From Rhodoferax sp. (GTDB lineage Bacteria > Pseudomonadota > Gammaproteobacteria > Burkholderiales > Burkholderiaceae_C), in assembly GCF_030697375.1 (NCBI RefSeq), contig NZ_JAUYQD010000057.1:62001-126000 (forward strand): a DNA stretch of 64,000 nt, read 5' to 3'. A program made the translations under genes and the position numbers. Positions 392 to 16,437 of this stretch are shown piece after piece. Positions within the stretch are counted from its first letter, which is position 1. Every line of letters begins with the position of its first letter. The notes beneath the pieces were generated by a model, which was given only the letters and a program-made list of their open reading frames with translations, was not told where the DNA came from and did not search any database.

Positions 392-2781
392 TTAGCGGCG
401 AGCTGCTGCCAGGTGGCAATCACCGAGTCAGGATTGAGGGAGATGGAGGAAATGCCCTCATCCTCCAGCCACTGTGCAAAGTCAGGGTGGTCGCTGGGGC
501 CCTGCCCGCAAATACCGATGTACTTGCCCTGGCGTTTGCAGGCAGAGATGGCCATGCTGATCAAGGCTTTGACCGCGGGGTCCCGCTCGTCGAAATCGGC
601 CGCCAGCACCGCCAAGCCGGAATCCCGGTCCAAACCAAGCGTCAACTGGGTCAGGTCGTTGGAGCCAATCGAGAAGCCGTCGAAATACTCCAGGAATTGG
701 TCCGCCAGAATGGCATTGCTGGGAATCTCGCACATCATGATCAGCTTGAGATCGTTTTCACCACGGCGCAGGCCGTGGCGGCCCAGCAGCTCCGTGACTT
801 TCTTGGCTTGGCCCAGGGTGCGGACAAAAGGCACCATCACCTGGACATTGTTCAGCCCCATGTCATTGCGAACCCGCTTGAGCGCTTCGCATTCCATGGC
901 GAAAGCCTCACCAAAGTCGGTGCTGATGTAGCGCGCTGCGCCACGGAAACCCAGCATGGGGTTTTCTTCTTCCGGCTCGTAGCGGCTGCCACCAATCAGC
1001 TTGCGGTATTCGTTGCTCTTGAAGTCGGACAGGCGCACGATCACCGGCTTGGGCCAGAAGGCCGCAGCAATGGTGGCCACCCCTTCGGCCACGCGGTCCA
1101 CGTAAAACGCGCGGGGCGATGCATGCCCACGCGCCACGGATTCCACGGCCTTTTTCAAGTCGGCGTCCACATTGGGGTAGTCCAAAATGGCCTTGGGATG
1201 CACACCGATGTTGTTGTTGATGATGAACTCCAGGCGTGCCAGACCCACACCCTGGTTGGGCAATTGGCAAAAGTCGAAGGCCAACTGGGGGTTGCCCACG
1301 TTCATCATGATCTTGACCGGGATCTCGGGCATGGTGCCGCGCTGCACTTCCGACACTTCGGTTTCCAGCAAGCCGTCATAAATGAAACCTGTATCACCTT
1401 CAGCGCAGCTGACGGTGACCAGCATGCCTTCCTTCAACGCATCGGTGGCATGGCCACAGCCCACCACGGCAGGAATACCCAATTCACGCGCAATGATGGC
1501 GGCGTGGCAGGTGCGCCCGCCGCGGTTGGTCACAATGGCCGAGGCGCGCTTCATGACCGGCTCCCAGTTGGGGTCGGTCATGTCGGTCACCAGCACATCG
1601 CCGGCCTGGACTTTGTCCATCTCGCTGATGTTGTGCACGATGCGCACCGGGCCGGTACCAATCTTTTGTCCAATGGCGCGCCCCTCGACCAGCACCGGGC
1701 CTTTGCCCTTGAGCTTGTAGCGGTATTCGGCCTGGTTGCCGGCCTGGCTTTTCACGGTTTCTGGCCGCGCTTGCAGAATGTAGAGCTGGCCATCCAGGCC
1801 GTCTTTTCCCCACTCGATGTCCATGGGACGGCCGTAATGCTCTTCAATCACCAGCGCGTAGCGGGCCAATTGCTCAACTTCGCTCTCGGTCAAGGAATAG
1901 CGGTTGCGCAGTTCGGTGGGGACATCGGTGGTTTTGACCAGCTTGCCGGCAACGGCTTTTTCCTCGGCGGTGGTGAACTGCATCTGGATCAGCTTGGAGC
2001 CCAGGTTGCGGCGGATCACGGCGCACTTGCCCGCACGCAGCATGGGTTTGTGCACGTAGAACTCGTCCGGGTTGACGGCGCCCTGCACCACCGTCTCACC
2101 CAAACCGTAGCTGGAGGTGATGAACACCACATCGGAGAAACCGGACTCGGTATCGATGGTGAACAACACGCCTGCGGCGCCCAAATCGGAGCGCACCATG
2201 CGCTGGATACCGGCGCTCAAAGCCACATGCTCGTGGGCAAAGCCCTGGTGCACCCGGTAACTGATGGCGCGGTCGTTGTAGAGCGAGGCAAACACTTCGC
2301 GGATTTTGTGCAGGATGTCTTCGATGCCATGCACATTGAGAAAGGTCTCTTGCTGGCCGGCAAAAGACGCGTCCGGCAGGTCTTCCGCCGTGGCGGACGA
2401 GCGCACGGCAAACGTGGCGTCCCGGTTGCCCGAGCTCAGCGTTTCAAAGGCCTCCCGAATGCCCTGTTCCAGGTCTGCGGGAAAGGGCTGTGCCTCCACC
2501 ATGGCCCGAATTTCGGCGCCGGCCAGCGCCAGGGCGCGCACGTCTTCGGTGTCCAGTGCACTCAGGCGGGCGTTGATTTTTTCGCTCAGGCCACCGAAAT
2601 GCAGAAACTCGCGAAACGCGTGCGCGGTGGTGGCAAAGCCCGTGGGGACTTTGACACCGGTGGGCAGGTGGGAAATCATCTCCCCCAGACTGGCGTTTTT
2701 GCCACCAACCGACTCGACGTCGGTCATCCGCAGCAGTTCGAAAGGAACGACCAGGTCATTCGGGTTGAAAAGAGTCGACAT
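388..2781 (-). CDS. ppsA: Phosphoenolpyruvate synthase (pyruvate, water dikinase)
   Basis: A 797-residue protein of the usual PpsA length that makes PEP from pyruvate and ATP, the entry step of gluconeogenesis. In order it shows an N-terminal ATP-grasp/PPDK domain (about 1-350), the swivelling phosphohistidine domain with G-G-R-T-C-H-A-A (His about 426, Thr about 424) and a C-terminal PEP-utilising TIM barrel carrying the active-site cysteine in C-G-Q-G-P-S-D. The Thr two residues before His is the expected target of PpsR, which is encoded divergently next door. The ATG at 2781 is preferred to an in-frame start 36 bases upstream because AGGAG precedes it at normal spacing and homologues begin near this Met. 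The downstream symporter overlaps by four bases. Confidence 0.97.
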
Positions 2782-3024
2782 GCATAAGCTCCTGAAGTTA
2801 AAACCCTTGCACTGCACCCCTGCCTAGCCGCAGGGCGCCGGTCTTCGACCAGCCCGCAGTCACATTCCCACCCGTTCCGACCTTTGTTGTGGTGTTGTTG
2901 GAATTCGGAACCGGGGAAAATGCGCTAAATTGGGGGCCATTGTAGGGGGCCTGCCGCAAAAGCCCCAAGCCCATTCACCGTCATGCACTGACATGCGCCT
3001 GACGACCCACCTAAGCCTTGCACC

Positions 3025-3846
3025 ATGCACCACCGCTCCGTATTTTTTGTTTCCGACGGCACCGGCATCACCGCCGAAACCTTTGGCAACGCCATCCTGG
3101 CCCAGTTTGAAGCCAAGGCACGGCATGTGCGTCTGCCCTTTGTTGACACGGTGGACAAGGCCCACCACGCGGTGCGGCAAATCAACCACGCCGCGGTGGT
3201 GGACGGCAACAAACCCATTGTGTTCACCACCCTGGTCAATATGGATGTGCTCAAAGTCATTCAGGATGGCTGCCAGGGCATGCTGCTGGACATGTTTGGC
3301 ACCTTTGTGCATCCACTGGAACAAGAGCTCAAGCTCAAATCCAACCACCGCATCGGCCGCTTCAGCGACGCCAGCAAGAGCCAGGAATACCAGGACCGCA
3401 TTGAGGCCATCAACTTCTCGCTGGCGCACGACGACGGCCAGAGCAACCGCGATCTGGAGCAATCGGACGTGATCCTGGTGGGCGTAAGCCGCAGCGGCAA
3501 AACCCCCACCTCGCTCTACCTGGCCATGCAGTACGGGTTGAAAGCCTCCAACTACCCGCTGATCCCCGAAGACTTTGACCGCCGCCAGCTGCCCCCGGCG
3601 CTGATCCCCCACAAGGCCAAGATTTTCGGACTGACCATCCAGCCCGAACGCCTGAGCGAAATCCGCAACGAACGCCGTCCCAACTCCAAATACGCCTCCA
3701 TCGAGAACTGCCGCATGGAAATCAGCGAGGCCGAGGCCATGATGCGGCGCACCGGCATCCGCTGGTTGTCCACCACCACCAAATCCATCGAAGAGATCGC
3801 CACCACCATCCTGCAGGAATTGCACCCCGAGCGGCTCAGTTACTGA
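3025..3846 (+). CDS. ppsR: PEP synthase regulatory protein (bifunctional kinase/pyrophosphorylase, DUF299)
   Basis: A 273-residue cytosolic protein of the PSRP/DUF299 family. It inactivates PpsA by ADP-dependent phosphorylation of the threonine next to the catalytic histidine and reactivates it by phosphate-dependent dephosphorylation. Visible signs are the family N-terminus V-F-F-V-S-D-G-T-G-I-T-A-E-T and a P-loop-like G-V-S-R-S-G-K-T at about 153-160. Length is normal. It is divergent from ppsA across about 240 bases in which I recognise no specific operator. Regulator and target side by side make this assignment very secure. Confidence 0.96.
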   Translation: MHHRSVFFVSDGTGITAETFGNAILAQFEAKARHVRLPFVDTVDKAHHAVRQINHAAVVDGNKPIVFTTLVNMDVLKVIQDGCQGMLLDMFGTFVHPLEQELKLKSNHRIGRFSDASKSQEYQDRIEAINFSLAHDDGQSNRDLEQSDVILVGVSRSGKTPTSLYLAMQYGLKASNYPLIPEDFDRRQLPPALIPHKAKIFGLTIQPERLSEIRNERRPNSKYASIENCRMEISEAEAMMRRTGIRWLSTTTKSIEEIATTILQELHPERLSY

Positions 3847-3847
3847 C

Positions 3848-3901
3848 GCTATTATTTTGATAGCTGTCTCCGCATATCCTTAAAGGGCTGGAGGCCTATT
3901 T
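3848..3901 (+). repeat. Dispersed ~49-bp repeat, copy A
   Basis: Forward-orientation copy of the family GCTAT-N7-ATAGC followed by a GCGCA-like core and a GGGCT...AGGCC tail. It lies just after the ppsR stop. An 8-base perfect inverted repeat (GACGCTAT at 3845-3852, ATAGCGTC at 3912-3919) encloses it, so transcripts from both flanking convergent genes could fold here. It may act as a bidirectional terminator, but there is no clear T-tract. Confidence 0.75.
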
Positions 3902-3922
3902 GATGCGCAATATAGCGTCGCA

Positions 3923-4237
3923 TCACTCCGGCACGTAGACAATACCGCCGTCCTTCATGCGGTAGGCGGTACCGGCCTTGGCCCCCTCGCCCTGGCCAAT
4001 CTGGCCGCTGGATTTGTAGCGTTCGATCTTTTCACCCTTCTTCACCAGCATCTCCATGGTCGGCTTGCCGGCATCGGTGATGACGGTCACGTCGCGTTGG
4101 CTGAAGGCGTTGAGCATCGGGTTTTGGGCCACGGTGATCAGCAGCGCGGCGATGATGACCAAAAAAATGTCAATGATGTTGACCACCGACAGGATGGGGT
4201 CATCGTTCTCCGGCTCGGGCAGCAGCTTCAGGCTCAT
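3923..4237 (-). CDS. DUF2149 protein, ExbD-like partner of the adjacent channel
   Basis: A 104-residue protein with one N-terminal transmembrane helix (about 18-38) that contains an aspartate (V-N-I-I-D-I-F-L), placed as in ExbD/TolR, and a C-terminal periplasmic part. The opening D-D-P-I-L-S-V-V-N is typical of DUF2149. It is the last gene of the heme-receptor operon and overlaps the MotA/ExbB-like gene by ATGA. The pair looks like a small proton-driven motor dedicated to the operon, separate from the exbB-exbD genes at 26.7-27.9 kb. The motor role is inferred from context and from the helix aspartate. Confidence 0.75.
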   Translation of the reverse strand: MSLKLLPEPENDDPILSVVNIIDIFLVIIAALLITVAQNPMLNAFSQRDVTVITDAGKPTMEMLVKKGEKIERYKSSGQIGQGEGAKAGTAYRMKDGGIVYVPE

Positions 4238-4725
4238 GCTGGGCGCCCCTTTTGCAAACGCACCAACTCTTCGGCCAACCAGCGCCGGCGCACATTGGAG
4301 ACGTAGTAGGTGATGCTGGCGGAGATCAAGGCCAAAATCACGGCCGAAAACGCCACCGTCAAACTGCCGGAGACCTGGGCCAGATTGCCGTCTGACAGCG
4401 ACTTGAGCGCCGGCCCCATGGGAATCATGGTGCCCACCAGCCCCAGCATGGGGGCAATGCGGCTGGCCAGGCGCTCAGGCTCCAGCAGCTTGTGGGCAAA
4501 CAGGTCCAGCTCATCGTCCGTCGCCTGGGGGAACTTCGCCGCATGGCTGAGCAGGGGGAAGCCGCGTCCCTGCGTGTCCTTGCGCCGCTGCAGGGCCTGC
4601 ACCCCAAAGCCGCCCAGGGCGTACAACGCGTACACAAACAGCAACGCCACCAGACCCAGCACCGGCAGCAAAAACAGCTGCCCTACCTGGTACATAAAGA
4701 TTTCGATCATGGAGCTTTCAGTCAT
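4234..4725 (-). CDS. MotA/TolQ/ExbB-family proton channel protein
   Basis: A 163-residue inner-membrane protein with about three transmembrane helices (roughly 10-32, 95-115, 125-148) and a cytoplasmic loop between the first two, the ExbB/TolQ topology. The second half carries the family pattern A-P-M-L-G-L-V-G-T-M-I-P-M-G-P. It is shorter than typical ExbB. It overlaps both neighbours by four bases (ATGA), so its stoichiometry with DUF2149 is probably tightly coupled. In this operon it probably powers heme import or heme processing at the envelope, possibly driving the CobN-like protein. Confidence 0.85.
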   Translation of the reverse strand: MTESSMIEIFMYQVGQLFLLPVLGLVALLFVYALYALGGFGVQALQRRKDTQGRGFPLLSHAAKFPQATDDELDLFAHKLLEPERLASRIAPMLGLVGTMIPMGPALKSLSDGNLAQVSGSLTVAFSAVILALISASITYYVSNVRRRWLAEELVRLQKGRPA

Positions 4726-5654
4726 TTCATTTCCTTGGGGTTAATCGCTGGGTTGGGGGTGGCTACCGAGCCGGTCAGTGGCATGGCGCAGGGGTCCGGG
4801 CGTGGTGTGGCGGCGGTAAACCACAGCACATCAAACCCGGTGCGGTCGTAGTCCGCAGGGCTGTGTTTGCCGTCTTCCACTTCCACAAAGGCAATGGCCA
4901 ATGCACGCCGGGGTTCCTGCAGGTAAACGGGTACGGCACGGTCGGTGCGGACATGGCCCGCCCCGGCAATCAAGACCACGGGGCCGGCCACGGAGTCCAG
5001 GGCCTGTGCCATTTGCACATCGCGTGCCCGCTGGGCCTGCACGATGGCGCTGAGGCGCGCCGGCGCGGGCCGCTGGCCACAGTGGCCCTGCACCACATCG
5101 TCTTCCAGCAAAACCAGTTGCGCTGCAGAGGCCACAGGCAACTGGGGCTGTACCTTCCCCAAGGCAATGTCGCGCGCCTGGGCACGGGACAGGTTGGCCG
5201 CCACCAGCGGCCACTGGCGCTGGGCGGCAAAGGTGATCAGCGCCTGGTACATCGGCCAGCGCCAGCCTGCGCGGTCGAGCTGGCCTGCATCGGCCAAGGC
5301 ATTCGCATCCACGGAGCCGGCTTGTTGTGCGGCCGACAGGGCGCCTTGGTGCCGGGCGTCAAACTGCTCCAGGGCCAGCGCGGCTTGGATACCGCGCAGT
5401 GCCAGCGCCTGCAGCACGTCCAGTTGGCGGGCGTGGTGCACTTCGCTGTCGTGTTTTTCACCCAGCAACACATAGCGGCTGGCGGCCGCACGCTGGTACA
5501 GCGCCTGTGCGTCGATGAACTGGCGCTTCGCCACATCCCAAATGCGGCCCTCCAAGGCCTGTGCGGCGGCACTGCCGGGCGCGTCTGCCGCATGGGCCCC
5601 GCCCACAGCCACCAGCAGACTGGCGGCCAAGCACCCCAAAATCCAGAACTTCAT
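4722..5654 (-). CDS. ChaN-family (heme-binding) periplasmic protein
   Basis: A 310-residue protein with a signal peptide (about 1-22, ending A-H-A). The mature part matches the ChaN/DUF399 fold: V-L-L-G-E-K-H-D near the N-terminus, A-L-E-Q-F-D in the middle and a late L-I-A-G-A-G-H-V. Campylobacter ChaN is a heme-binding iron-regulated lipoprotein; here I see no lipobox. It sits between the CobN-like gene and the channel gene with ATGA overlaps on both sides, which argues for one functional unit. The start at 5654 is chosen because it overlaps the CobN stop and has GGAG upstream; two in-frame ATGs further upstream are less likely. A heme-handling role is inferred from family and operon. Confidence 0.8.
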   Translation of the reverse strand: MKFWILGCLAASLLVAVGGAHAADAPGSAAAQALEGRIWDVAKRQFIDAQALYQRAAASRYVLLGEKHDSEVHHARQLDVLQALALRGIQAALALEQFDARHQGALSAAQQAGSVDANALADAGQLDRAGWRWPMYQALITFAAQRQWPLVAANLSRAQARDIALGKVQPQLPVASAAQLVLLEDDVVQGHCGQRPAPARLSAIVQAQRARDVQMAQALDSVAGPVVLIAGAGHVRTDRAVPVYLQEPRRALAIAFVEVEDGKHSPADYDRTGFDVLWFTAATPRPDPCAMPLTGSVATPNPAINPKEMK

Positions 5655-8600
5655 GCTTTTCTCCATTGTTGCCATGCCCCCAGGGCCGGTGTCATGAACA
5701 GCAAACCCAGGGCCAGCAACACCATGGCACTGAGCGCCTGCACCACCGGGGCCGCCACCGGTTCCAGCTTCATGCCTTCGATCAGGGGCGCCACCGGGGC
5801 GGGCGGGGGTTGAGGTTCAACTGGGGTTTGGGCCGGCGGGGCTGCGGCCCGCAGTGCGGAGCTTGCCATAACAGTCTCCGTGGGTGCCACGGATTGGCTC
5901 AGCCCGTACCCCGGCAGGCCCACATACTCCTGGAAGGTCTGGTTGCTGGTGCGCACATCAAAACGCTGGGCCAGATCCTTGTAGCGCTCTTTCAGCTCCT
6001 GCACCGTGGCACTGTCGGCCTGCCAGTAGCCCTGGCGGGCCATTTCGATCATGCGCTCCATCATCTGGGCCAGGGCGTGCGGATTTTCCCGCTCCATCCA
6101 TTGTTGAATACCCAGTTGGTGTTTGTCACGCACATACACATCGGCAAACTCCTGCCATTGGTCGTCGCGCACAATCTCGCGCGCCACGGTGGTCCAGCCG
6201 GTGAAGTTGTTGATGCTGTCAACCATCTGGATGGTGCCGGCATAACCTTCCTTCATCAGCGCCTGGATGTGCCCGGGGTGAAAGTTGCGGGTGGCCAGTT
6301 CTTTGGCCAAAAACGCGCTGGCTTCTTCCGCTTTGCCCGAACCCGACCCGCGCAGATTGGAGATAAACAGCTCCGGCGCTTTGCCATCGATGTAGCGCAC
6401 GGCGGTGGAAATGCCGCCCAGGTACTGGAACGGGTCGTCGGTGGTGAGCATGCCGTACAGGTTGGAAGTACGGGCCAGCACCGCTGCCTGGGTACCTTTG
6501 AGCTGGGCGGCGTAGAGGTTGAAGCGGCCATTGCTTCCTTGGGCCGCACCGCCGCCCGCACCGGCCACACTGGCCAGTTCGGCACCGCTCTTGCCCCAAT
6601 CGGCTTCGTCCGGGCCAAAGGCGAACTGCATCTTGCGCAGGTACAACTCCGCCATTTTGCGGTCGCCCTCCTCCTTGCTGCCCCAGGTGTCGGTGGCCAG
6701 GGCCGCATCGTCCAGGCCAGAGCCGTAGTTGCCCGAGGCGCCCGAAAAAATGCGCGTCTCGGCCGCCTTCTGGGCAGCCTCCGAGCGCCACCCTTGCGAC
6801 GCCAGTTGCCGGGCAATGGCCTGGGTGTTGTGCGCCACGGGGTTGTCCGACTCGCCGGTGGCCTGCGCCGCCAGTTGCGCCGCACGCGCCAGTTGTTTCA
6901 TGGCGTTGGGGAAATGGTCGCGGTACAGGCCGGTCGCCGACAGCACCACGTCGATGCGTGGGCGGCGCAACTCCTTGCGGGGCACCAGTTTCACGTCCAC
7001 CACCCGGCCCCCGGCGTCCCACACCGGCTCCACACCCAGCGCCCACAGCGCCTGCGCCTCCAGCATGCCTTGGTGGCGCATGGTCTCCACCGACCACAAT
7101 GAAAACGTGAACTTGGACGGGGTGATGCCGGTCTTTTGCTGGTGTGCCGCCACCAGCTTGTCCAGCGCTTCCTTGCCCGCCATCCAGGCCGCTTGGGTCG
7201 GCACACGCGAGGGATCGAAGCCATACAGATTGCGCCCGGTGGGCAAACTGTCCGGGTTCTTGATCGGGTCACCACCGTAGGAGGTGGGAATGTAGCGGCC
7301 CTCCAGCGCGGCCAGCAGCCCGCGGGTCTCGCCCTCGGCCTGCAAATCCCCAAACCAGCGCTGGCCCTGCTCCACCATCGTCCGCAACTTGGCCGGGAGT
7401 GGGCCCGTGGGCGCTTTCTCCACCAGATGTTTGCGCAGCAGTAGGTAGGGTGCCGTCTGGGCGATTTTGCTGAAATCGGCCACGATGGCTTCGTCCGCCT
7501 CGTCGTCGTTGCCGTCCACATGGATGGCCGTGGCCTCCCAAAACGGCGCGCCCAGCATCATCAGCACCGTCGCCAGTTGGCCGTGTTCGCCCGCGCCCTT
7601 GCCAAAGGTGTGCAGACCCAAGGGCTGCGCCGTTTGGGCAAGTTCGTGCAAATGGTCGTGCAGGGCGTTGACAAAGGCCGGAAATTCCCGCTCCATGCGG
7701 GCCGTGCTCCAGCCCATGTCCAGGTGAATACGCTCTTTCACCACCGTGGCCAGGAGCTGGGCGCGCAGTTGGTCTTTCACCGCGCCGGTGTCCTGGGCCA
7801 GCCAGGCGTGCAAATCGTCGTGCATATGGGTCAAGACCGAGTGCAGGCCGGCCGGAGCAAAGGGCGGGGTCTGGTAACTGATGTTGACCGCACGCCCGCG
7901 CCGCTTGGTTTGCACCGCCTCGCCAATGTTGTCCACGATGTAGGGGTAAATCACCGGCACATTGCCAATCGCCATCAGCGGGTAGTCGTGCACCCACAGG
8001 CCGCGCTCCTTGCCGGGCAACCATTCCTGCGTGCCGTGGGTGCCGTAGTGGATGAGCGCATCGGCCTTGAACTGCTCGCGCATCCACAGGTAGGCCGCCA
8101 TGTAGGAGTGCGGCGGTGCGGCACTGCTGGAGTGGTAGATCTCCTTGTTTTTGGCATACACCCCGCCCCCCACAGGTTCGCCGCGCGGCGGCTGCGGCAG
8201 GATGCTGATGTTGCCCAGCTTCAAGCGGGGAATCGCAAAATAGGCCTCGCCATTGCGCCGCACCAAAAACACCGACTTGTCGGGGTGGCCCGCGGAGGCG
8301 GTCCAGGCCTCACGCCGTTCCTCGGGCAGGCTGGCCAGCCATTTTTTGTAGGTGGCCAGGGGCATCAACTCCGCCAACCCGTCACGCACCAGCGCCTCCA
8401 TTTCCTCGGCCACCGTACCGGGGCGGTAAAAGGGTTTGAGCAGGCGCTGCATAGAGCGCGTCAGCGTGGCGGCGTCGGGGGTTTCGGTGCGGTAGCCGGC
8501 CGCCTTCATGGCCGCCAGTGTGGTCTGCAGGCTGGTGGGCAGGTTCATGTAGGACGCCCCCAGGTTTTTCTCGCCCGGCGGATAGTTCCAGAACATGATG

Positions 8601-9712
8601 GCGACTTTTTTGTCCGCATTGGCCGCCTGCGCCAGACGGGCCAGCGCCAGGGCCTTGCCGACCACGGCGGCGGCTTGCTCGGGGATCGCGCGCAACTGGT
8701 CGCTGGCCTTGTCGGTGCTGGAGGCCACCATCACGTCAAACACACCGGCGTATTCGGGCTGTGACAGGTAGAAAGGCACATCCATCAAGGCAATGCCCAC
8801 AGGGTCGTTCCACCAGGCGTCGGTATCGCCCTTTTTGTAGCCCATGGCCTGGATCACGGGAATGCCGAGCGCCGCGAACTCGGCGCGCCGCCCCTCGGGG
8901 TTGAGCATGATCTGGGTGGTGATCAACACATCGGCCAAGGTCTTGCCACCGGGCGCCAGCAGTTGGCTGGCCGCCGTGTTGTCCATCACCGGGCTGTAAT
9001 ACGCCAGCGGCACGGCCCCCGCCGCCTCGATGCGGGCGATCAGGTCGTCGATCGCCTGGGTTTGCTCGGATGCGATGGACTGCTGGTGAAAGGCAATCGC
9101 CACGACCGGCCGGCCTTGGGGCTGCCCCTTCCAGCGCAGGTAGGCGGCGCTGTCGTTGAAGACCAGGTTGGGCGCCTTGGGGTGGTAAATGGCGGTGGCG
9201 GCAAAGACCTGGGGCGGCGCAATTTTTTGCCAGGGCTTGCGCGCCAGGTGGGCCGCCAGCGTGGCAAAAAAGCCAGCGTTGTTGGCCCGCCCACCGTTCA
9301 CATAGTAGGCATGCAGGCGCTGGGCCAGGTCGTCGGGCAGGTTCTGCCAACTGGGGGTCTGGACGTTCAACCACAGTGTGGGCGTTTTGGCACTTGCCAA
9401 AGCGGGCAGCGCACCATTCACCCGTGCGGCAATGGCTTCCTGGATATGGTCGCGTGGCGCATCAAACACCACAGCGTCAAAGCCGCGCCACAGACCGGCG
9501 TCGATGGTGCCCAGCTTTTCCACAAACTTCGCCTCGATCCGAATGCCATAGGGGGCTGCCACCTCCGCGAGCACGCGAAACTTGCCGGGTGTGATGGGGC
9601 TGGAGGTGACGAACAGGACATTCGCCGCCAGCGCGCCCAAGGGCATGCCCAGCAAGGACACCAACAAGGCCACCCAGGCCAGGGAGCGTCGCCAAGGGCG
9701 GTTCAGGCGCAT
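5651..9712 (-). CDS. Exported, membrane-anchored CobN/Mg-chelatase-H-family protein (HmuS-like, candidate heme dechelatase)
   Basis: A 1353-residue protein of the CobN/BchH large chelatase family, with typical blocks such as H-Y-G-T-H-G-T-Q-E-W-L-P-G-K and N-Y-P-P-G-E-K-N. Unlike cobaltochelatase CobN it starts with a clear signal peptide (Arg-rich n-region, hydrophobic core, cleavage about ALA29) and ends with a transmembrane helix (about 1325-1347) after a Pro-rich linker, so it should face the periplasm, tethered to the inner membrane. No cobS, cobT, chlI/chlD or cobalamin genes are nearby. Instead it follows a heme-type TonB receptor (TGATG overlap) and precedes ChaN and a proton-channel pair. 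In Bacteroidetes the related HmuS sits in hmuYRSTUV and is reported to remove iron from heme. The start at 9712 is set by that overlap and by the signal peptide. Confidence 0.85.
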   Translation of the reverse strand: MRLNRPWRRSLAWVALLVSLLGMPLGALAANVLFVTSSPITPGKFRVLAEVAAPYGIRIEAKFVEKLGTIDAGLWRGFDAVVFDAPRDHIQEAIAARVNGALPALASAKTPTLWLNVQTPSWQNLPDDLAQRLHAYYVNGGRANNAGFFATLAAHLARKPWQKIAPPQVFAATAIYHPKAPNLVFNDSAAYLRWKGQPQGRPVVAIAFHQQSIASEQTQAIDDLIARIEAAGAVPLAYYSPVMDNTAASQLLAPGGKTLADVLITTQIMLNPEGRRAEFAALGIPVIQAMGYKKGDTDAWWNDPVGIALMDVPFYLSQPEYAGVFDVMVASSTDKASDQLRAIPEQAAAVVGKALALARLAQAANADKKVAIMFWNYPPGEKNLGASYMNLPTSLQTTLAAMKAAGYRTETPDAATLTRSMQRLLKPFYRPGTVAEEMEALVRDGLAELMPLATYKKWLASLPEERREAWTASAGHPDKSVFLVRRNGEAYFAIPRLKLGNISILPQPPRGEPVGGGVYAKNKEIYHSSSAAPPHSYMAAYLWMREQFKADALIHYGTHGTQEWLPGKERGLWVHDYPLMAIGNVPVIYPYIVDNIGEAVQTKRRGRAVNISYQTPPFAPAGLHSVLTHMHDDLHAWLAQDTGAVKDQLRAQLLATVVKERIHLDMGWSTARMEREFPAFVNALHDHLHELAQTAQPLGLHTFGKGAGEHGQLATVLMMLGAPFWEATAIHVDGNDDEADEAIVADFSKIAQTAPYLLLRKHLVEKAPTGPLPAKLRTMVEQGQRWFGDLQAEGETRGLLAALEGRYIPTSYGGDPIKNPDSLPTGRNLYGFDPSRVPTQAAWMAGKEALDKLVAAHQQKTGITPSKFTFSLWSVETMRHQGMLEAQALWALGVEPVWDAGGRVVDVKLVPRKELRRPRIDVVLSATGLYRDHFPNAMKQLARAAQLAAQATGESDNPVAHNTQAIARQLASQGWRSEAAQKAAETRIFSGASGNYGSGLDDAALATDTWGSKEEGDRKMAELYLRKMQFAFGPDEADWGKSGAELASVAGAGGGAAQGSNGRFNLYAAQLKGTQAAVLARTSNLYGMLTTDDPFQYLGGISTAVRYIDGKAPELFISNLRGSGSGKAEEASAFLAKELATRNFHPGHIQALMKEGYAGTIQMVDSINNFTGWTTVAREIVRDDQWQEFADVYVRDKHQLGIQQWMERENPHALAQMMERMIEMARQGYWQADSATVQELKERYKDLAQRFDVRTSNQTFQEYVGLPGYGLSQSVAPTETVMASSALRAAAPPAQTPVEPQPPPAPVAPLIEGMKLEPVAAPVVQALSAMVLLALGLLFMTPALGAWQQWRKA

Positions 9713-11961
9713 CAAAAGTCCACCTGCAAAGCCAGGCTGACGTTGCGGCCCGACTGGCTGTAAAAGTCGACACCGACCGGATGGGTGGCATCGGCCTGGC
9801 GGATATCGCTCCACAGCCAGTATTTGTTGTCAAAAACGTTGTTCAGTGCCAGCGTGAGCTGGGCCTTGCGGCTGATCTTCCACCACGCAGAGACATCGCT
9901 GACGGCATAGGCCCCCGGGCGGAACCACGCACCCGCGCTGTCGTCCACCCGGTCTTTTTGGGTGGCGGCGCGCAGGCGCCCTTCCAGCCCCCACACGCCA
10001 AAATCACGCGCCAGGTTGGCGGACAGGCGCATTGGCTCCACGCTGTTGAGGGGCCGTCCGGTCTCTTCATTGGTGCCATGGGCCCAGGCCAACGAACCAC
10101 CGGCACTCCAGCCGGGCGCAAAGTCCCAGCTGGCGCGCGCCTCGGCACCGTAGATGCGCACCCGGCTCAGGTTGACCGACTGGTAGGTGGATGTGGTGCC
10201 GGTGATGCAATTGGTGTTGCCCGGGCAGGTGTAGCGCACACTCTCAATGAAGTCCTGGTAGTGGTTGTCAAAAACACTGAGCTGGCTGCGCAACTTGCCG
10301 CTGTGGGTGCGCAGGCCCAGTTCGACCCCCAGGCTGGTTTCGGGCTTGAGATTGGGATTGGGCGTAATACCGTACTGCTGCGCGGTATTGCGAAATACAC
10401 CGTTGACCTCGCTGTAATTGGGGGCACGAAAGCCCTGCGCAATCTGACCGTAAGCCGAGACCACCGGGTCCAAGCGCCACACCGCCCCCACCTTGGGCGA
10501 GAACGCACCATGCGTTTGCTCCACCGCTTGGCGGCCAATGGCGGTCAGCACCTGCTGGGCCAGCGCATCCACCTCCGGCGTGAGCCTGATCCGGTCATAC
10601 CGCAGGCCGGGCGTGATCGAGAGCTTGCCGTCAGCCAGGCCGCTGATTTCGTCTTGCAGGAAGAGGCCCAGCGCATCGGTCTTGCCTGTGGCGAAGTCGC
10701 GCAAAGGATAGGTCTCCCCCGCCAGCGATTTGGTGAAGGTGCCCGCCGTCTGGTTCCAGATGCGGGCATCGCGCAGTTCCTCGACCCGGGTGCGGCTGAA
10801 ATCCGCACCGTAGGTCAGCATGTGGCTGGCATCGCCGCCGCTCTCCAGCATTTTTTCAAACTGCAGGCTGGTGCCAGTGCTGGTCTGGTCGACGCTGAAG
10901 TCACTTTCGATGTAGCAGTTGTTGCCTGCGCCCGAGGCAGCCGAGCAGGTCGCAGAGGTGTTGGTCCGGTTCTGGAAGTTGTAGTTGCGTGTTTTGGACT
11001 CCTGCTGGTACAGGCGGGCCGTCAGGCGGTCGTACAAGGGCGCGGCGGCGCTGTGCTCCCACTCCACACTGGCGCGCACGCGCCGGGCGTTGTCCTCGCC
11101 ACGCACTGCGGTGACTTTGGGCAAGGACGCCGACAAGCGGCGGATATCGGAGTCCACCTGCTGGTCGCGCCCCTCCACCATGGCACTGAGCTTGTGGCCT
11201 GCAGACGGCCGCCAAACCAGCTTACCCAGCACACCCTGGTCCTCGGACTTGAGTGCGTTGGGACGGGTGCGGCTGGTGGATGTGGTGTCCGCAGTCCCCA
11301 GGTTGTCAATCTCCTTGCCGCTGGCGTGGCTGTAGCCCAGCAGCACCTCGGCCGTGCCGTCCCGGAACGCCCCGAGCACGGTCTGGCTCAGCCCCCCGTT
11401 GGCGCCGGTGTAGGCACCGCGCAGCCGAAAGCCGCTGTTCGCGCCGTCCAGCATCAGGTCCGCAGGGTCAAGCGTGACATAGCCGACCACGCCACCAATG
11501 GCGTCCGAACCGTACAGGCTGGAAGCCGCCCCGCGCACGACTTCCACCCGCTTGAGGAAATCCGGCATGGCGGTGGGCGAGGCGCTTTGCGTGAAGTTGG
11601 TCGGGCCGCCGCCGTTGTAATAGTCCCCCAGGCGCACACCGTCCACCATGGACACCACCCGGTTGTCCTCAATGCCACGGATGTTGACGCGGGTGGCGCC
11701 ATGGCGGCGAAGGTCGCGGGCAAAAGCCACATCAACCTCGTCCTTGAACACATCGCTTTCATCCAGCGGCTGGCTGCGGTCCAGACGGGTACGGTCGACG
11801 CTGGTGACGGTTGCGGGAATCGTGTCCTTGTCGGCGGCGCTGCGCGTTGCGGTGACCACCACTTCCTTCAACGTAACGGCATCATCGGCCAGCGCCGCAT
11901 TACACGCCAGGGCGATGAGAAGGAACAGGGGCCGTAGTTTGAACGGGGCGTTTTGCATCAT
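9712..11961 (-). CDS. TonB-dependent heme/hemoglobin receptor (HmuR/PhuR type)
   Basis: A 749-residue outer-membrane receptor. A signal peptide (about 1-26) is followed by a TonB-box-like stretch (K-E-V-V-V-T-A-T), a plug with V-N-I-R-G-I-E-D-N-R-V and a 22-strand-type barrel ending in aromatic V-D-F. The FRAP (about 511-514) and NPNL (about 535-538) boxes are diagnostic of heme receptors. The frame could open earlier, at 12048, but that start lies inside the Fur box, so ATG 11961 (or 11958) is preferred; GAAGG precedes it. A near-perfect Fur site lies about 70 bases upstream, so the whole five-gene operon is probably iron-repressed. Confidence 0.93.
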   Translation of the reverse strand: MMQNAPFKLRPLFLLIALACNAALADDAVTLKEVVVTATRSAADKDTIPATVTSVDRTRLDRSQPLDESDVFKDEVDVAFARDLRRHGATRVNIRGIEDNRVVSMVDGVRLGDYYNGGGPTNFTQSASPTAMPDFLKRVEVVRGAASSLYGSDAIGGVVGYVTLDPADLMLDGANSGFRLRGAYTGANGGLSQTVLGAFRDGTAEVLLGYSHASGKEIDNLGTADTTSTSRTRPNALKSEDQGVLGKLVWRPSAGHKLSAMVEGRDQQVDSDIRRLSASLPKVTAVRGEDNARRVRASVEWEHSAAAPLYDRLTARLYQQESKTRNYNFQNRTNTSATCSAASGAGNNCYIESDFSVDQTSTGTSLQFEKMLESGGDASHMLTYGADFSRTRVEELRDARIWNQTAGTFTKSLAGETYPLRDFATGKTDALGLFLQDEISGLADGKLSITPGLRYDRIRLTPEVDALAQQVLTAIGRQAVEQTHGAFSPKVGAVWRLDPVVSAYGQIAQGFRAPNYSEVNGVFRNTAQQYGITPNPNLKPETSLGVELGLRTHSGKLRSQLSVFDNHYQDFIESVRYTCPGNTNCITGTTSTYQSVNLSRVRIYGAEARASWDFAPGWSAGGSLAWAHGTNEETGRPLNSVEPMRLSANLARDFGVWGLEGRLRAATQKDRVDDSAGAWFRPGAYAVSDVSAWWKISRKAQLTLALNNVFDNKYWLWSDIRQADATHPVGVDFYSQSGRNVSLALQVDF

Positions 11962-12030
11962 GGTGGCCTTCGGGAAAACAGAGGGTTTCTGGCTGGCTGG
12001 GTAGCGCAATACGCGGGGCCCGGCTTGCTT

Positions 12031-12049
12031 AATGAGAATGATTCTCATT
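12031..12049. promoter_or_regulatory. Fur box (heme operon / ybaN divergent region)
   Basis: AATGAGAATGATTCTCATT is an almost perfect 19-bp palindrome and matches the Fur consensus closely. It lies between the divergent heme-receptor operon (start 11961) and ybaN (start 12103) and could repress both when iron is plentiful. Confidence 0.92.
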
Positions 12050-12102
12050 ATACATTAACCACAGCGGCACCCAAGCGCGGCAAGCTCGGGTACATTGCGG
12101 CC

Positions 12103-12501
12103 ATGCAAACCCGCCCACCCGTCCCCACACGCCCGCGCTGGCAGCGCTGTATCTGGCTGGTGGGCGGATTTGTCTGCCTGCTCACCGGCATCGTCGGTGT
12201 CGTTTTGCCCCTGCTTCCGACCACCCCTTTTGTGCTGCTGGCGGCCTTCTGTTTTTCACGGGGCAGTGCACGTTATGAACAGTGGCTGCTGATGCATCCG
12301 CGCTTTGGCCCGCTGGTGCGCGACTGGCGGGACAACCGCGCCGTGCCCTTGCGGGCCAAGCAGGCGGCCACGGCCATGATGGCGCTCAGCTCCATCGCCG
12401 CCTGGTGGGTGTTGCCCCCGCATCTGCGCTGGATTCCCGGGGTGTGCTGCACCGGCGTGGCAATATGGCTGTGGAGCCTGCCGACACGCGTCACCATGTA
12501 A
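12103..12501 (+). CDS. ybaN: YbaN-family (DUF454) inner-membrane protein
   Basis: A 132-residue membrane protein with the DUF454 pattern: G-x-V-C-L-L-T-G-I-V-G-V-V-L-P-L-L-P-T-T-P-F in the first helix, then C-F-S-R-G-S and a W-L-L-M-H-P-R-F-G-P motif, then two more helices. Length is normal. The molecular function of the family is unknown; it often lies near heme/iron genes, and here it shares a Fur-box intergenic region with a heme receptor operon. The start at ATG 12103 fits homologues; a longer in-frame extension crosses the Fur box and is rejected. Confidence 0.88.
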   Translation: MQTRPPVPTRPRWQRCIWLVGGFVCLLTGIVGVVLPLLPTTPFVLLAAFCFSRGSARYEQWLLMHPRFGPLVRDWRDNRAVPLRAKQAATAMMALSSIAAWWVLPPHLRWIPGVCCTGVAIWLWSLPTRVTM

Positions 12502-12517
12502 ATTGCGAATCAAATGA

Positions 12518-12565
12518 GCCTCTAGCACTTATGGAATGTGCGCAGGCAGCTATTATTTAGATAGC
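12518..12565 (-). repeat. Dispersed ~49-bp repeat, copy B
   Basis: Reverse-orientation copy (GCCTCTAGC... GCGCAgGCAGCTATTATTTAGATAGC, split here) between convergent ybaN and nnrS. Its GCTAT hairpin tip supplies the last codons and the stop codon of nnrS (stop at 12553-12555). Confidence 0.85.
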
Positions 12566-13809
12566 AAAACAGAGACTTGAACACCGTCGCAGCCCCCTCC
12601 GCCATCGCTGCGTTGCGACCAAAATACCGGCGCCATGTGCCAGGCATACAGCACAAACGCCCCACCCCAGAGCACACCGGAAACCATAAGCCACGGGCGA
12701 CTGTCGGTGCCTGGCCAGGCGGCACCCGCCCGGACCAAGGCCGCCACCAGCAACATGCTGGCACCCACCGGCACCCAGCGCCGCTCGTCTGGCACCAGAC
12801 CGCAATGCGCACGACCGGCAATACACATCACGACAAAAATATTGAGCCCCAGCGCGCCTACGGTTAACAAATGCCGTCCGGCGCTGAAGGCTTCGCCCCC
12901 CAGGAGCAGCGCTAGCCCCATGGTGGCGTAGCCCGCTGCCATCAACACATACACACCGTAGAGCATGAGCGCCCAACGCCGAAACAAGGCGCGCCCAATG
13001 TGCCAGTCATTGAGCAGGTGGAGCACTGCCGCAGCGGCGGCCAGCGCCAGCCACCCGGCGATCCGATCCCCCGGCCCCCAAAACTCGGCCACCGTATACA
13101 GAGCGATAAAAACCATCGCCAGATTGCGGCGTGGCGGGCGGGCCCGGTACTGCACCCCCACCACACCGGCTTCATCGATGGCCCCATTGACAATCCGCAT
13201 CGAAATACGGCTCATGGCCACCACGATCAGGACCATCAGAGCGCCCAGCGCCGCATGGAGCCAGCGGCCGGGATACGCGCCGCGCAACGCATCGGCGTAA
13301 AAACCCGCCACACAGACCATCAGCGCACCCAGCCCCCAGAGAAATGCCAGATGACGGCGCTCCGGGTCGCGCCACAGCCGTGGCGCCAGCATGGCGGCCA
13401 GCAAGCCCAGCAAACCCAACTGGGCCAGCGCAGCCAGCAGCAAAGCCCCCGGTCCGAACACGCCAGAGCACCAAAACATAAAACGTCCTAGCAGCCACAA
13501 ACCCACCAGCCACCGCACTGCGCCCCCCCCAAAGGCAGCGGTGTCGGTGAACTCGGGAATGCCGGTGAGCACAAAACCGACCACCGCAGCCAGGCCAAAA
13601 CCAAAGATCAACTCGTGCGCATGCCAGATGAAGGGGCCACCCGCCACCTCCGGCAAGGCGAGACCTGTGGCAAGAAAGGCGACCCACAGGCCGATGCACA
13701 GGGGCGCCGTCAGGGCAGCCAAGAGAAAGAAGGGGCGAAATCCACACAACCACAGTGGATGCGCCGCATGCCAGAGCGGAAAGGACCGATGCAGGGTGCC
13801 TTTCAGCAC
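12553..13809 (-). CDS. nnrS: NnrS family heme/copper membrane protein
   Basis: A polytopic membrane protein of about 418 residues with roughly twelve helices. The N-terminal L-W-L-C-G-F-R-P-F-F-L and the W-H-A-H-E-L-I-F-G-F block with following G-F-V-L-T-G-I-P are diagnostic of NnrS, a heme- and copper-containing protein linked to nitric oxide stress. The start is probably GTG 13809: it has AGAAAGGG upstream at good spacing and overlaps the ABC ATPase stop by seven bases. A TTG start at 13845 would also be possible. It is the last gene of the ABC transporter operon. The C-terminus (L-S-K and stop) is formed by a dispersed repeat, so the protein tail has been altered by repeat insertion. Confidence 0.9.
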   Translation of the reverse strand: MLKGTLHRSFPLWHAAHPLWLCGFRPFFLLAALTAPLCIGLWVAFLATGLALPEVAGGPFIWHAHELIFGFGLAAVVGFVLTGIPEFTDTAAFGGGAVRWLVGLWLLGRFMFWCSGVFGPGALLLAALAQLGLLGLLAAMLAPRLWRDPERRHLAFLWGLGALMVCVAGFYADALRGAYPGRWLHAALGALMVLIVVAMSRISMRIVNGAIDEAGVVGVQYRARPPRRNLAMVFIALYTVAEFWGPGDRIAGWLALAAAAAVLHLLNDWHIGRALFRRWALMLYGVYVLMAAGYATMGLALLLGGEAFSAGRHLLTVGALGLNIFVVMCIAGRAHCGLVPDERRWVPVGASMLLVAALVRAGAAWPGTDSRPWLMVSGVLWGGAFVLYAWHMAPVFWSQRSDGGGGCDGVQVSVLLSK

Positions 13810-14606
13810 GAAAACCCTTTCTTTTTGAGGGGCGCGCTCCGGCAAGCCTCAGACGCCTTCGGTGAGGTGGCCGGCAATCCAAAGCTTTCACGCACCACCG
13901 CCACCTGCAACAACGCAGCGGTGGTTTGGTAGACGCTGGCGTCATCTCGCAAGCGGGCCGCAGTCGTCGCTTCAAACCGGTACACGATACGGCCAGGATC
14001 GCTGGCCATCACCAACACCGTATCGGCCAGGCGCACTGCCTCCATGAGATCGTGGGTGATCATCAGCACGGCCAGACCCCGCGCGGCCTGCTGGTCCAGC
14101 AGCAGCGCGTGGAGTTGCGCCTTGAGACCGATGTCCAAGGCGGAAAAAGGCTCATCCAACAACAGCAAATCCGGCTGTAGCACCAGCGCACGGGCCAAGG
14201 CAGCACGGCTTTGCATACCGCCCGACAGGGCGTGCGGGAACTGGTCGAGCGCCGCCCGGTCCAGCCCGACCTCCTGGCCCATGTCCTGCGCGCGGCGGTC
14301 GCGTTGCGCGCGGGGAACACCCGCAGCTTTAAGACCCAGTGCGATGTTCTCGCGGGTGGTTTTCCATGGCAGCAGGCGCGGCTGCTGGAACATGACACAA
14401 GACGACTGAAACCGGTTCTCCAGCGTCCCGCTCTGGCAGCGCAACAGTCCCGCGCACACATGCAACAAGGTGGTCTTGCCGCAGCCAGAGGGGCCCACAA
14501 GGGCCACCACCCGCCCGGCGGCCAATGTCAAGTCGATGCCACTGAGCACGGTGGTGGGTCCGTAGGCATGCGAGAGGCCCTGCAACTTCAAATGCGGGGC
14601 CATCAT
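13803..14606 (-). CDS. ABC transporter ATP-binding protein, NitT/TauT (SsuB/TauB) type
   Basis: A 267-residue ATPase with Walker A G-P-S-G-C-G-K-T-T (about 38-46), Q-loop region F-Q-Q-P-R-L-L-P-W, signature L-S-G-G-M-Q-S-R, Walker B L-L-L-L-D-E-P-F-S-A-L-D and switch His in M-I-T-H-D. The Q-Q-P-R-L-L-P-W and D-E-P-F-S-A-L-D versions are characteristic of nitrate/sulfonate/taurine-type importers. It overlaps the permease stop (ATGATG at 14606/14603) and is followed by nnrS. The substrate cannot be deduced from sequence. Confidence 0.93.
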   Translation of the reverse strand: MMAPHLKLQGLSHAYGPTTVLSGIDLTLAAGRVVALVGPSGCGKTTLLHVCAGLLRCQSGTLENRFQSSCVMFQQPRLLPWKTTRENIALGLKAAGVPRAQRDRRAQDMGQEVGLDRAALDQFPHALSGGMQSRAALARALVLQPDLLLLDEPFSALDIGLKAQLHALLLDQQAARGLAVLMITHDLMEAVRLADTVLVMASDPGRIVYRFEATTAARLRDDASVYQTTAALLQVAVVRESFGLPATSPKASEACRSAPLKKKGFSC

Positions 14607-15394
14607 TCGCCGGTACTCCGCCAGTGCTCTACTTCCCGCTTGAGGGGCTCCAGCAGCAGGTACTCCACCGCCAGCAGTATCCCCACCACGGCACAGATCC
14701 ACGCCAGGGTGGCGGTCGTGTCAAGCTGCGCACGGCTCACGGCCAAGGCTGCGCCCACGCCATCGCTGGAGGCCAACAGCTCGGCCATGACAACGACCTT
14801 CCATGCAGTGCCCAGGGCCGTGATAAAGGCTGGAAACAGGTAGGACACGACGTGGGGAAGGTACAGGTCCCAAAGCTTCATGCGGCGGGTCAAGCGAAAT
14901 GCCTGCGCCATGTCTTTCAAATGGTGGTCGAGCGTGCGTGCGCCCTGCAGTGCGCTGACAAAAACCACCGGAAAGCAGGCAATAAAGACGGTGAATACCG
15001 GTGTGCCGTCGCTGGCGCCAAACCACAGCATCGCCAGCACCAGCCAGGCAATCGGCGGGGTGCCGAGCAACACGGTCACCAGCGGGCGGGCCATCATGGA
15101 GGCCGTCATGGAGACCCCGGCGGCCAAGCCAAGCACACTGCCCACGGCCATCGCCAAGGCCAGCCCGGTCATGGCGCGCCGGGCGGTGACGGCCAGCTCG
15201 GGCCACGCAGCGCCGGACTGGAGCATTTGATGCAGCATGGAGAAGGTGCTGGCGGGGTCCGGCAGGATCAACACGCCATACACGGCGCTGACCCACTCCC
15301 ACGCTGCCAGCAGCAAAAACAGGCTACCCACCGCGCCCCAGCCACTCCACAGGTAGGAAGGAATGCCCAGGACCCAGGCACGCAGCAGGCTCAT
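14603..15394 (-). CDS. ABC transporter permease, NitT/TauT (SsuC/TauC) type
   Basis: A 263-residue inner-membrane permease with about six helices and the cytoplasmic EAA-like loop around Q-A-F-R-L-T-R-R-M-K-L-W-D-L-Y-L-P-H-V that docks the ATPase. P-P-I-A-W-L-V-L-A-M-L-W-F-G is typical of the SsuC/TauC branch. It overlaps the binding-protein gene upstream (ATGA) and the ATPase downstream. Confidence 0.92.
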   Translation of the reverse strand: MSLLRAWVLGIPSYLWSGWGAVGSLFLLLAAWEWVSAVYGVLILPDPASTFSMLHQMLQSGAAWPELAVTARRAMTGLALAMAVGSVLGLAAGVSMTASMMARPLVTVLLGTPPIAWLVLAMLWFGASDGTPVFTVFIACFPVVFVSALQGARTLDHHLKDMAQAFRLTRRMKLWDLYLPHVVSYLFPAFITALGTAWKVVVMAELLASSDGVGAALAVSRAQLDTTATLAWICAVVGILLAVEYLLLEPLKREVEHWRSTGE

Positions 15395-16437
15395 GGACGC
15401 TTGCCCGGTACTCTGGCGACGCTTGTGATCGGGCTGTAAAAACCGGCATCCGGCAATTTGCCACCGACCAGTGCGGGCTGCCTGGCCAGTAACTGGCCGA
15501 AAAAGAACTCCAGTTCGGGCTGTGCCTCCATGGCCGAAACAAAGCGGGCGTTGTCAATCCGAATGGAATCGGCCACCGCTTCAGGGGTCAACATGGCGAC
15601 CCGTTTGGCAACCAGTGCGCCACAGGCATCGGGACTGGCCTCGCACCACTTCAGTGATGCCGCATACGCGGTCTGAAAACGCGCAATCAGGTTGGTGTTG
15701 CCAACGGCCTTGCCCATCGCGGTGATTCCCGCCTGCGGTATACGCGCCTCGCGCTGCATCACACGCCCCCACTCCTGCTGCAGATCCACACTGCGGTAGA
15801 GCTGGGGAGCGATCACACTGACCGGAAATGACTGGGTTTTACGCAGGGCCATGGAAATGGCCGGTTCTGCCAGCAGTGCATGGTCTACCCGGCGTGTAAT
15901 GAGCAGTTGCATAGCCTCAATGGGGGTGCCCACATAACGCAATTTGAAATCACGCTTGACATCCAGGCCCTGCTTTTCCGCCAGCAGCTGGAAAACGATA
16001 TCAGGCATATCGGCGCGAAAAGGCATGGCAATTTCCTTGCCCTTGAAATCGGCCAGCGTCTTCAGACTGTTGTCACGCGAAACCATCCACAGCACGCCCC
16101 AGGTGGACACATTGAGCATCTGCAGCTTGACGCCCCGGTTGTACAGGTTGGCGGCCACATTGGTGGGCATGGCAACGAAGTCGGCCTGCCCGTCCATCGC
16201 CAACACGCGCAAATGGTCAGGGTCTTTCCAGGGGATGAACTCCACCGTATCCGCCAGGTCCTTGAGTGCGCCGCTTTCCACCATATGGATGAGCGGATTG
16301 GACACCGCAGCAAAAGGACCTGCCAGCACGAGCTTGGGCAGCCGTGCGGTTTGCGCAGTCGCGCTGGAAAGACCGGTGGAGGCCAATAGAAATGCCACCG
16401 CCAGACAGCCGCTGAAGAAATGCTGCATTGGTCGCAT
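15391..16437 (-). CDS. ABC transporter substrate-binding protein, NitT/TauT (NMT1/SsuA-like) type
   Basis: A 348-residue periplasmic protein with a signal peptide (about 1-29, ending A-T-A-Q) and a two-lobe binding fold of the NMT1/THI5-like family (A-G-P-F-A-A-V-S-N-P-L near the N-terminus, V-D-H-A-L-L-A-E-P-A in the middle). The start ATG overlaps the stop of the upstream TonB-receptor remnant by ATGA, so its translation is coupled to that remnant. Two nearby Fur-like sites suggest iron control of the whole operon. The ligand is unknown; the operon with a TonB receptor suggests something that also crosses the outer membrane actively. Confidence 0.87.
   Translation of the reverse strand: MRPMQHFFSGCLAVAFLLASTGLSSATAQTARLPKLVLAGPFAAVSNPLIHMVESGALKDLADTVEFIPWKDPDHLRVLAMDGQADFVAMPTNVAANLYNRGVKLQMLNVSTWGVLWMVSRDNSLKTLADFKGKEIAMPFRADMPDIVFQLLAEKQGLDVKRDFKLRYVGTPIEAMQLLITRRVDHALLAEPAISMALRKTQSFPVSVIAPQLYRSVDLQQEWGRVMQREARIPQAGITAMGKAVGNTNLIARFQTAYAASLKWCEASPDACGALVAKRVAMLTPEAVADSIRIDNARFVSAMEAQPELEFFFGQLLARQPALVGGKLPDAGFYSPITSVARVPGKRP

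Follow-up and report, generated by a model that had tools for sequence, protein, structure and literature searches.

An operon of Rhodoferax with a heme-type receptor, an exported CobN-like protein and an ExbB-like/DUF2149 pair: a possible periplasmic demetallation system

The 64,000-nucleotide stretch of Rhodoferax sp. DNA analysed here (contig NZ_JAUYQD010000057.1, positions 62,001 to 126,000; the window) carries five minus-strand genes (11961-3923) encoding, in order, a PhuR-like heme receptor, relatives of CobN, ChaN and ExbB, and a DUF2149 protein. This operon may be a periplasmic metallo-tetrapyrrole demetallation system powered by the ExbB-like/DUF2149 pair, a reading that is put forward tentatively and for which we infer heme as the cargo, metal removal as the reaction and the pair as the power source. 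The module of CobN, ExbB-like protein and DUF2149 is almost certainly real, and the pair quite probably serves CobN rather than the receptor. This partnership, and a second, zinc-linked copy of the module on another contig, go beyond the first-pass annotation of the window, which had read the operon as extracting iron from heme, or shuttling heme, in the periplasm, and whose interpretation is partly supported overall.

Operon layout and the exported CobN-like protein

The five genes overlap at their junctions (TGATG or ATGA stop-start overlaps), and the Pfam or NCBIfam matches of all five products exceed the family cut-offs; the gene set is not due to chance, since the same set recurs in relatives. 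The TonB-dependent heme-type receptor (9712..11961, minus strand, 749 aa) passes two heme receptor cut-offs (TIGR01786, 434 bits, cut-off 324; TIGR01785, 408 bits, cut-off 317), contains both the FRAP and the NPNL boxes, and has PhuR (8the, 292 bits) as its closest solved relative. The genes that follow, all on the same strand, encode: a putative exported, membrane-anchored CobN-like (de)chelatase (5651..9712, ATG at 9712, 1353 aa); a ChaN-like secreted protein of the Tiki superfamily (4722..5654; PF04187, 124 bits); an ExbB/TolQ/MotA-like channel subunit (4234..4725, 163 aa; PF01618, 35 bits, cut-off 22.9); and a DUF2149 protein (3923..4237, 104 aa; PF09919, 100 bits), whose membrane helix contains an acidic residue and which is proposed as the ExbD-like partner. 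The ChaN start at 5654 gives an ATGA overlap, and an alternative ATG lies upstream at 5675; the sole solved match of this protein is 2g5g ('putative lipoprotein', 55 bits), which we take to be Campylobacter ChaN. Judged by the Pfam scan, none of the five products is an ABC (ATP-binding cassette) permease or a recognisable permease of another kind. A Fur-box-like operator (12030..12052), 73 bp upstream of the receptor start, matches 16/19 positions of a Fur consensus; within window 1-16000, one other 19-mer reaches 13/19 or more, and it overlaps this box. Further upstream (window 12553-16506) lie an NnrS gene and the genes of an ABC transporter whose binding protein is of the NMT1/phosphonate type; ABC genes and NnrS likewise stand beside the module at a Diaphorobacter plasmid locus (L011; compared loci are given by their L numbers).

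The CobN-like protein covers profile positions 1-1089 of 1090 in PF02514 (972 bits), and its solved relatives are HmuS (9d26, 403 bits), M. tuberculosis CobN (325 bits) and ChlH (319 bits). Its N-terminus has a hydrophobic stretch, behind which comes an Ala-rich signal-peptidase-like site, and its C-terminus a membrane helix (hydropathy peaks 1.97 and 2.21, respectively); these features were judged by hydropathy and by eye only. By these sequence features the protein is exported, with a periplasmic body and membrane segments at both ends. Its nearest named relatives belong to Rhodoferax and other betaproteobacteria, and the named exported relatives carry the label cobaltochelatase; the window protein itself exceeds the cut-off of NCBIfam NF004644, 'cobaltochelatase subunit CobN' (1367 bits, cut-off 1248). 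The identity as an ordinary cobaltochelatase subunit which these database labels imply is very improbable and was rejected: apart from the export features, a quick tree does not place the protein in the cytosolic CobN branch, both PF02514 genes of the host assembly (99.99% complete) adjoin TonB receptors, and CobT (PF06213) had no match genome-wide while the Caulobacter positive control matched; CobS was not searched. There were no cobalamin genes among the scanned neighbouring open frames, the remaining window not having been Pfam-scanned, and no cobalamin riboswitch (Rfam, gathering threshold) in the window or at L004, the second locus of this genome.

The first-pass annotation is borne out by these results in its five overlapping genes, its heme-type receptor with FRAP and NPNL boxes, its MotA/ExbB-like channel gene, its CobN, ChaN and DUF2149 assignments, the export and C-terminal anchoring of CobN, the Fur box and, among the frames scanned, the lack of nearby cobalamin genes. 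It had set its reading against a position inside the true cobaltochelatases with cobS/cobT elsewhere in the genome; the part of this comparison that was run gave neither such a position nor a CobT match.

The ExbB-like/DUF2149 pair as a partner of CobN

The association of the pair with CobN was followed in 12 plasmid loci (hand-picked for diversity from 159 matching records, ten of them annotated) and in 20 regions from 18 genomes of the same order (mostly best-scoring, from the 54 that matched the window protein among 300), the module genes being found with small hidden Markov models built from module proteins. Counting CobN-found genes with an intact 3' end, ExbB-like and DUF2149 genes lie within 4 kb of 25 of the 28 whose products have a C-terminal helix (the window and L004 included), compared to 0/87 without the helix. 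The helix threshold of 1.2 behind these counts was set after the values had been seen (L011, at 1.26, is the closest), and the 87 helix-less genes are not independent, because 80 of them are haloarchaeal genes from one scan (80/80 without C-terminal helix) and 7 are others. The three helix-bearing CobN without the pair are L026, which reaches a contig end, and the related Cupriavidus-type L015 and L036. In these last two loci (L015 5422-14507, L036 4146-12271) the helix-bearing CobN stands beside a second, helix-less CobN, with cobW also present in L015.

The settings of the trio vary. In Prevotella and Bacteroides (L018, L020) it is part of hmu operons, in Azospirillum (L012) it stands beside iron ABC genes, and on a Comamonadaceae plasmid (L014) no receptor is annotated within 15 kb of it. 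A Runella plasmid (L017, 1-11839) presents hypF, a TonB receptor, a urease-accessory gene and the module, followed by hypC, hypD and hypE, which from the gene content looks like a nickel setting. In Trichlorobacter lovleyi (L016) the trio adjoins a separate annotated exbB-exbD-tonB set; the description of this plasmid reports CobN with ExbB-ExbD-TonB and the absence of CobS/CobT (PMC3403914). Canonical ExbB/ExbD were found besides the module pair at three loci: L016 (with tonB), L040 (with a weak TonB match) and L024. The cobalamin-type CobN loci L019 and L021 and the BchH locus L022 do not have the pair. The ExbB-like protein matches canonical ExbB in a profile comparison (hhalign, E 2e-7). 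An acid is present in the single membrane helix of all 68 aligned DUF2149 proteins (D in 67, E in one), and unforced hhalign aligns it, weakly, with the ExbD Asp (P 0.0033, probability 9.8%); a DUF2149 profile match to the designed coil 8qag was not used.

Mirror-tree analysis of 21 bacterial loci, taking the nearest receptor where there were several, revealed that the pair distances correlate with those of CobN (r 0.82) more than with those of the receptor (r 0.49). The partial correlation was 0.75 for pair and CobN (0/2000 permutations as high) and 0.08 for pair and receptor (463/2000).

In archaea, 294 genomes of the phylum to which a Haloarcula genome belongs were scanned, and 91 have DUF2149; among 14 control genomes M. 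acetivorans, which also has PF02514, is the single positive. Loci were fetched for 40 of the 91 (alternate genomes, the first 40 of the 46 so obtained, with the best match of each), and they have ExbB-like genes in 38 cases, DUF2162 in 31 and CobN in 30; a TonB receptor and TonB were each found in 0/40. Archaea of this kind have no outer membrane, and the archaeal pair therefore cannot serve a TonB receptor. PF02514 (E <=1e-20) is present in 87/91 genomes with DUF2149 versus 86/203 of the others (Fisher p 1.5e-20, uncorrected for relatedness; both scans taken to cover the same 294 genomes). Pair-adjacent archaeal CobN has the C-terminal helix in 28/29 cases, the exception (L146) being partly masked. 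DUF2149 stands without CobN at ten loci, three of which (L159, L173, L175) end at a contig edge by the pair.

Further features were observed at the archaeal loci. At L166 (7804-13021) the pair, without CobN, precedes two HGD-D genes and one for a BcrAD-type ATPase; HGD-D/BcrAD was discarded as a second partner of the pair, as it was seen in none of the other 39 loci (tblastn). Tandem CobN-type genes occur at L144, L151, L156, L167, L176 and L177, some rows reading NMGRHG for HFGTHG, a sequence difference hinting at divided roles. The 'predicted transporter' DUF2162 accompanies the module in T. lovleyi (L016 3771-4469) as in 31 of the 40 archaeal loci (L143-L182) and is a candidate carrier for released metal; no paper naming it was found in the literature searched.

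Published models assign the Bacteroidota proteins HmuU and HmuV to the receptor or to heme transport (PMC12583661, PMC13227078, PMC10100974), HmuUV acting as ExbBD for HmuR (PMC12583661, PMC10100974). Transferred to the window, this would make the CobN-like protein an HmuS-type, reductant-driven heme dechelatase and leave the pair to energise the TonB receptor, as assumed for HmuU/HmuV. The operon does parallel hmuYRSTUV in its heme-type receptor, its exported CobN-like protein with N- and C-terminal anchors and an H538 equivalent, its ExbB-like and DUF2149 genes and its iron control, and HmuS activity is reported as NADH-dependent in vitro (PMC12583661). We consider this alternative unlikely, as the pair is present in archaeal loci without receptor or TonB, a canonical ExbB/ExbD set exists separately at some loci, the divergence of the pair follows CobN and not the receptor, and the HmuS ligands are absent from the window protein. 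The parallel is also incomplete: only R, S, U and V equivalents are present, without an HmuT-like match, an HmuY gene or any further gene in the operon (HmuY was not profile-searched), and ChaN is present in the window. An effect of HmuT, HmuU and HmuV on HmuS activity is raised as a possibility in PMC13227078, and HmuV-like proteins are noted in Proteobacteria and Methanomicrobia in PMC10100974. A role of the ExbB-like/DUF2149 pair as CobN motor was not found stated in literature titles or abstract openings.

Active site, cargo and the host genome

HmuS is described as a heme dechelatase that depends on NADH and is inactivated by the H538A mutation (PMC12583661), and HmuS and the hmu operons had been described before (PMC10434189, PMC13227078). 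Residues were compared in an alignment of 75 CobN-type open frames from the fetched loci (at least 200 bits, 2.7 kb). H538 is kept in the window protein, within HYGTHG (Tyr for Phe) against HFG(T/A)HG. The H1209 site (LSLDHxxEFMGG in HmuS) reads LTTDDPFQYLGG, with Asp for His, as in 10/10 rows of the window clade; Ile replaces H254 and Pro replaces M79, the head-domain alignment near Met79 being weak. The methionine-rich insert of HmuS domain IV is missing by alignment (at most 7 Met per 80 residues). In a sister proteobacterial group His is present at 1209 in L012, L032, L033 and L035, and at 254 in L012, L033 and L035 (not L032), indicating that the absence of both from the window protein is not a mere effect of distance; L033 and L035 carry CirA-like or related receptors. 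Three archaeal module rows (L150, L169, L177) also have His at 1209, and the BchH-type rows have His (L022) or Asn or Thr (L041, L042).

The quick tree was built from 66 of the 75 rows (nine were dropped as fragments, masked or doubtful), with two HmuS rows and a midpoint root. It places the window clade (Shimodaira-Hasegawa-like approximate likelihood ratio test, SH-aLRT, 96) within a 17-row proteobacterial clade (SH-aLRT 100) that does not contain HmuS; 15/63 inner branches have values below 80 and most rows show compositional heterogeneity. Membership of the HmuS branch was rejected by this placement and by the missing M79, H254 and H1209. The kinship to HmuS implied in the first-pass annotation stands as far as the best solved relative and the kept H538 are concerned, and is not supported for the branch itself, the three ligands and the insert: as judged from alignment and tree, the window protein is an HmuS relative among the exported forms, with different active-site ligands.

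The cargo is fairly likely to be heme-like, heme iron being suggested by the receptor together with the Fur-like box. The window receptor and PhuR share a loop aligned as Tyr-x-Ile-x-Pro-Asn-Pro-Asn-Leu, whereas the PhuR plug-region His is unmatched in the alignment; the heme-binding residues of PhuR are assumed here, a literature look-up for its ligands having yielded nothing. The lack of a His between the FRAP and NPNL boxes was rejected as an argument against heme, because PhuR, the best solved relative, carries Tyr at the aligned place. In the window CobN clade, seven of the nine loci with scanned receptors, the window among them, have one that exceeds both heme cut-offs; at the tenth clade locus (L026) the receptor is cut and lay outside the scan.

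Another chelated metal or tetrapyrrole, such as a corrinoid or an unfamiliar metallophore, could instead be the cargo of an operon that is merely iron-controlled. The Asp in place of H1209 is shared with haloarchaeal cobalamin-type CobN, where HmuS and one BchH carry His; relatives lie beside zinc genes (L004, PA1922-PA1925) and hydrogenase/urease genes (L017); and clade loci L011 and L030 have CirA-like receptors. We give this little credence for the window operon, where the receptor exceeds both heme cut-offs with PhuR as its best structure and where, as at L004, no cobalamin riboswitch was detected. Exported CobN-like proteins with a proposed role on metalloporphyrins are known as BtuS (PMC6460266), the 'third type' of CobN proposed by Rodionov et al. 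2003, as cited there: they share export and a predicted metalloporphyrin salvage with the window protein, and differ from it in that the window operon has no riboswitch.

The host genome carries its second copy on contig C79 (L004 6267-16583; G000:C79:12000-31900), in the order ABC ATPase, ABC-3 permease, ZnuA, TonB receptor, CobN, ExbB-like, DUF2149, which by gene content is a zinc version of the module in the same genome. Its likely counterpart, matched by description and not by sequence, is the Zur-regulated PA1922-PA1925 set of P. aeruginosa, reported to include a CobN-like and an 'ExbD' gene (PMC4542158, PMC8531726); this set resembles the window operon in having a TonB receptor, a CobN-like gene, a gene called ExbD and a hypothetical gene, and differs in its zinc control. 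Heme oxygenase HemO (PF01126) and HemS had no match in the genome, and HugZ was found only below threshold (34 bits, cut-off 240).

The CobN-like protein might also be a periplasmic chaperone or relay for heme or another metallo-tetrapyrrole, passing intact cargo to a pair-driven inner-membrane step without demetallation. A chaperone or relay role has been suggested for P. gingivalis HmuS (PMC13227078), the HmuS-specific ligands are absent here and ChaN is a possible heme binder. We regard this as rather improbable, given that H538, whose loss is reported to abolish HmuS turnover (PMC12583661), is kept, that no recognisable permease is encoded among the five products and that the genome has no HemO or HemS match. 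On balance, and by analogy with HmuS, the reaction would be demetallation: the direction of metal removal is suggested by the HmuS precedent and the retained H538 equivalent. As the HmuS ligands are missing, the cargo could be a metallo-tetrapyrrole other than heme.

Proposed mechanism and implications

Cytosolic class I chelatases are worked by AAA+ (ATPases associated with diverse cellular activities) ATPases. In the proposed demetallation system, the PhuR-like receptor would carry heme (or a close relative) into the periplasm, where ChaN may buffer it and the membrane-anchored CobN-like protein would strip the metal from the metallo-tetrapyrrole, iron being afterwards imported by other transporters. 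The ExbB-like/DUF2149 pair would be an ion-driven stator that, in a compartment lacking ATP, performs the conformational work on the chelatase, taking the role held by the AAA+ proteins CobS/CobT or ChlI/ChlD. CobNST and ChlHID/BchHID share with the module the PF02514 family of the catalytic large subunit, but are cytosolic and ATP-driven by AAA+ proteins where the module has the pair. Since an exported chelatase cannot use AAA+ ATPases, a stator pair would be the simplest driver, given its near-constant association with CobN even in the absence of an outer membrane.

Several results weigh against this reading. The HmuS-specific ligands and the methionine-rich insert are missing, so the active site does not reveal whether heme is handled, and two of the nine clade loci (L011, L030) have CirA-like or other receptors only. 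Neither partner is invariably found with the other: L015 and L036 have a helix-bearing CobN without the pair, and L147, L153, L163, L164, L166, L168 and L178 have DUF2149 without CobN, with at least about 3.5 kb visible downstream. The co-divergence supports a partnership of pair and CobN without proving contact, because joint inheritance combined with receptor replacement would look alike. ChaN was found in only 2/20 fetched same-order regions (with a single-sequence profile), and FeoB_C had no match in the genome. Finally, B. theta HmuS purified without its membrane segments is reported to have turned heme over with NADH (PMC12583661), indicating that a motor is not strictly required.

As tentatively as for the window operon itself, we suggest that extracytoplasmic (de)chelatases of the CobN family in Proteobacteria, Bacteroidota, Thermodesulfobacteriota and archaea may have the pair as their dedicated ion-gradient motor, with receptors or carriers that vary with the cargo of the module: iron/heme, zinc and probably nickel or corrinoids. 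If the pair powers exported CobN, this would account for chelatase activity in a compartment devoid of ATP, and would add a second power mode for metal-tetrapyrrole chemistry beside the AAA+ ATPases. HmuU and HmuV would then be reassigned from the receptor to HmuS. The use of HmuV as a diagnostic of heme transport (PMC10100974) would be called into question, because DUF2149 is also present in the zinc-linked operon of this genome and in archaea. A partner would be offered for the archaeal 'CobN' proteins, the functions of which are called unclear by the HmuS authors (PMC12583661), and the operon is a candidate route to heme iron for this Rhodoferax, whose genome gave no HemO or HemS match.

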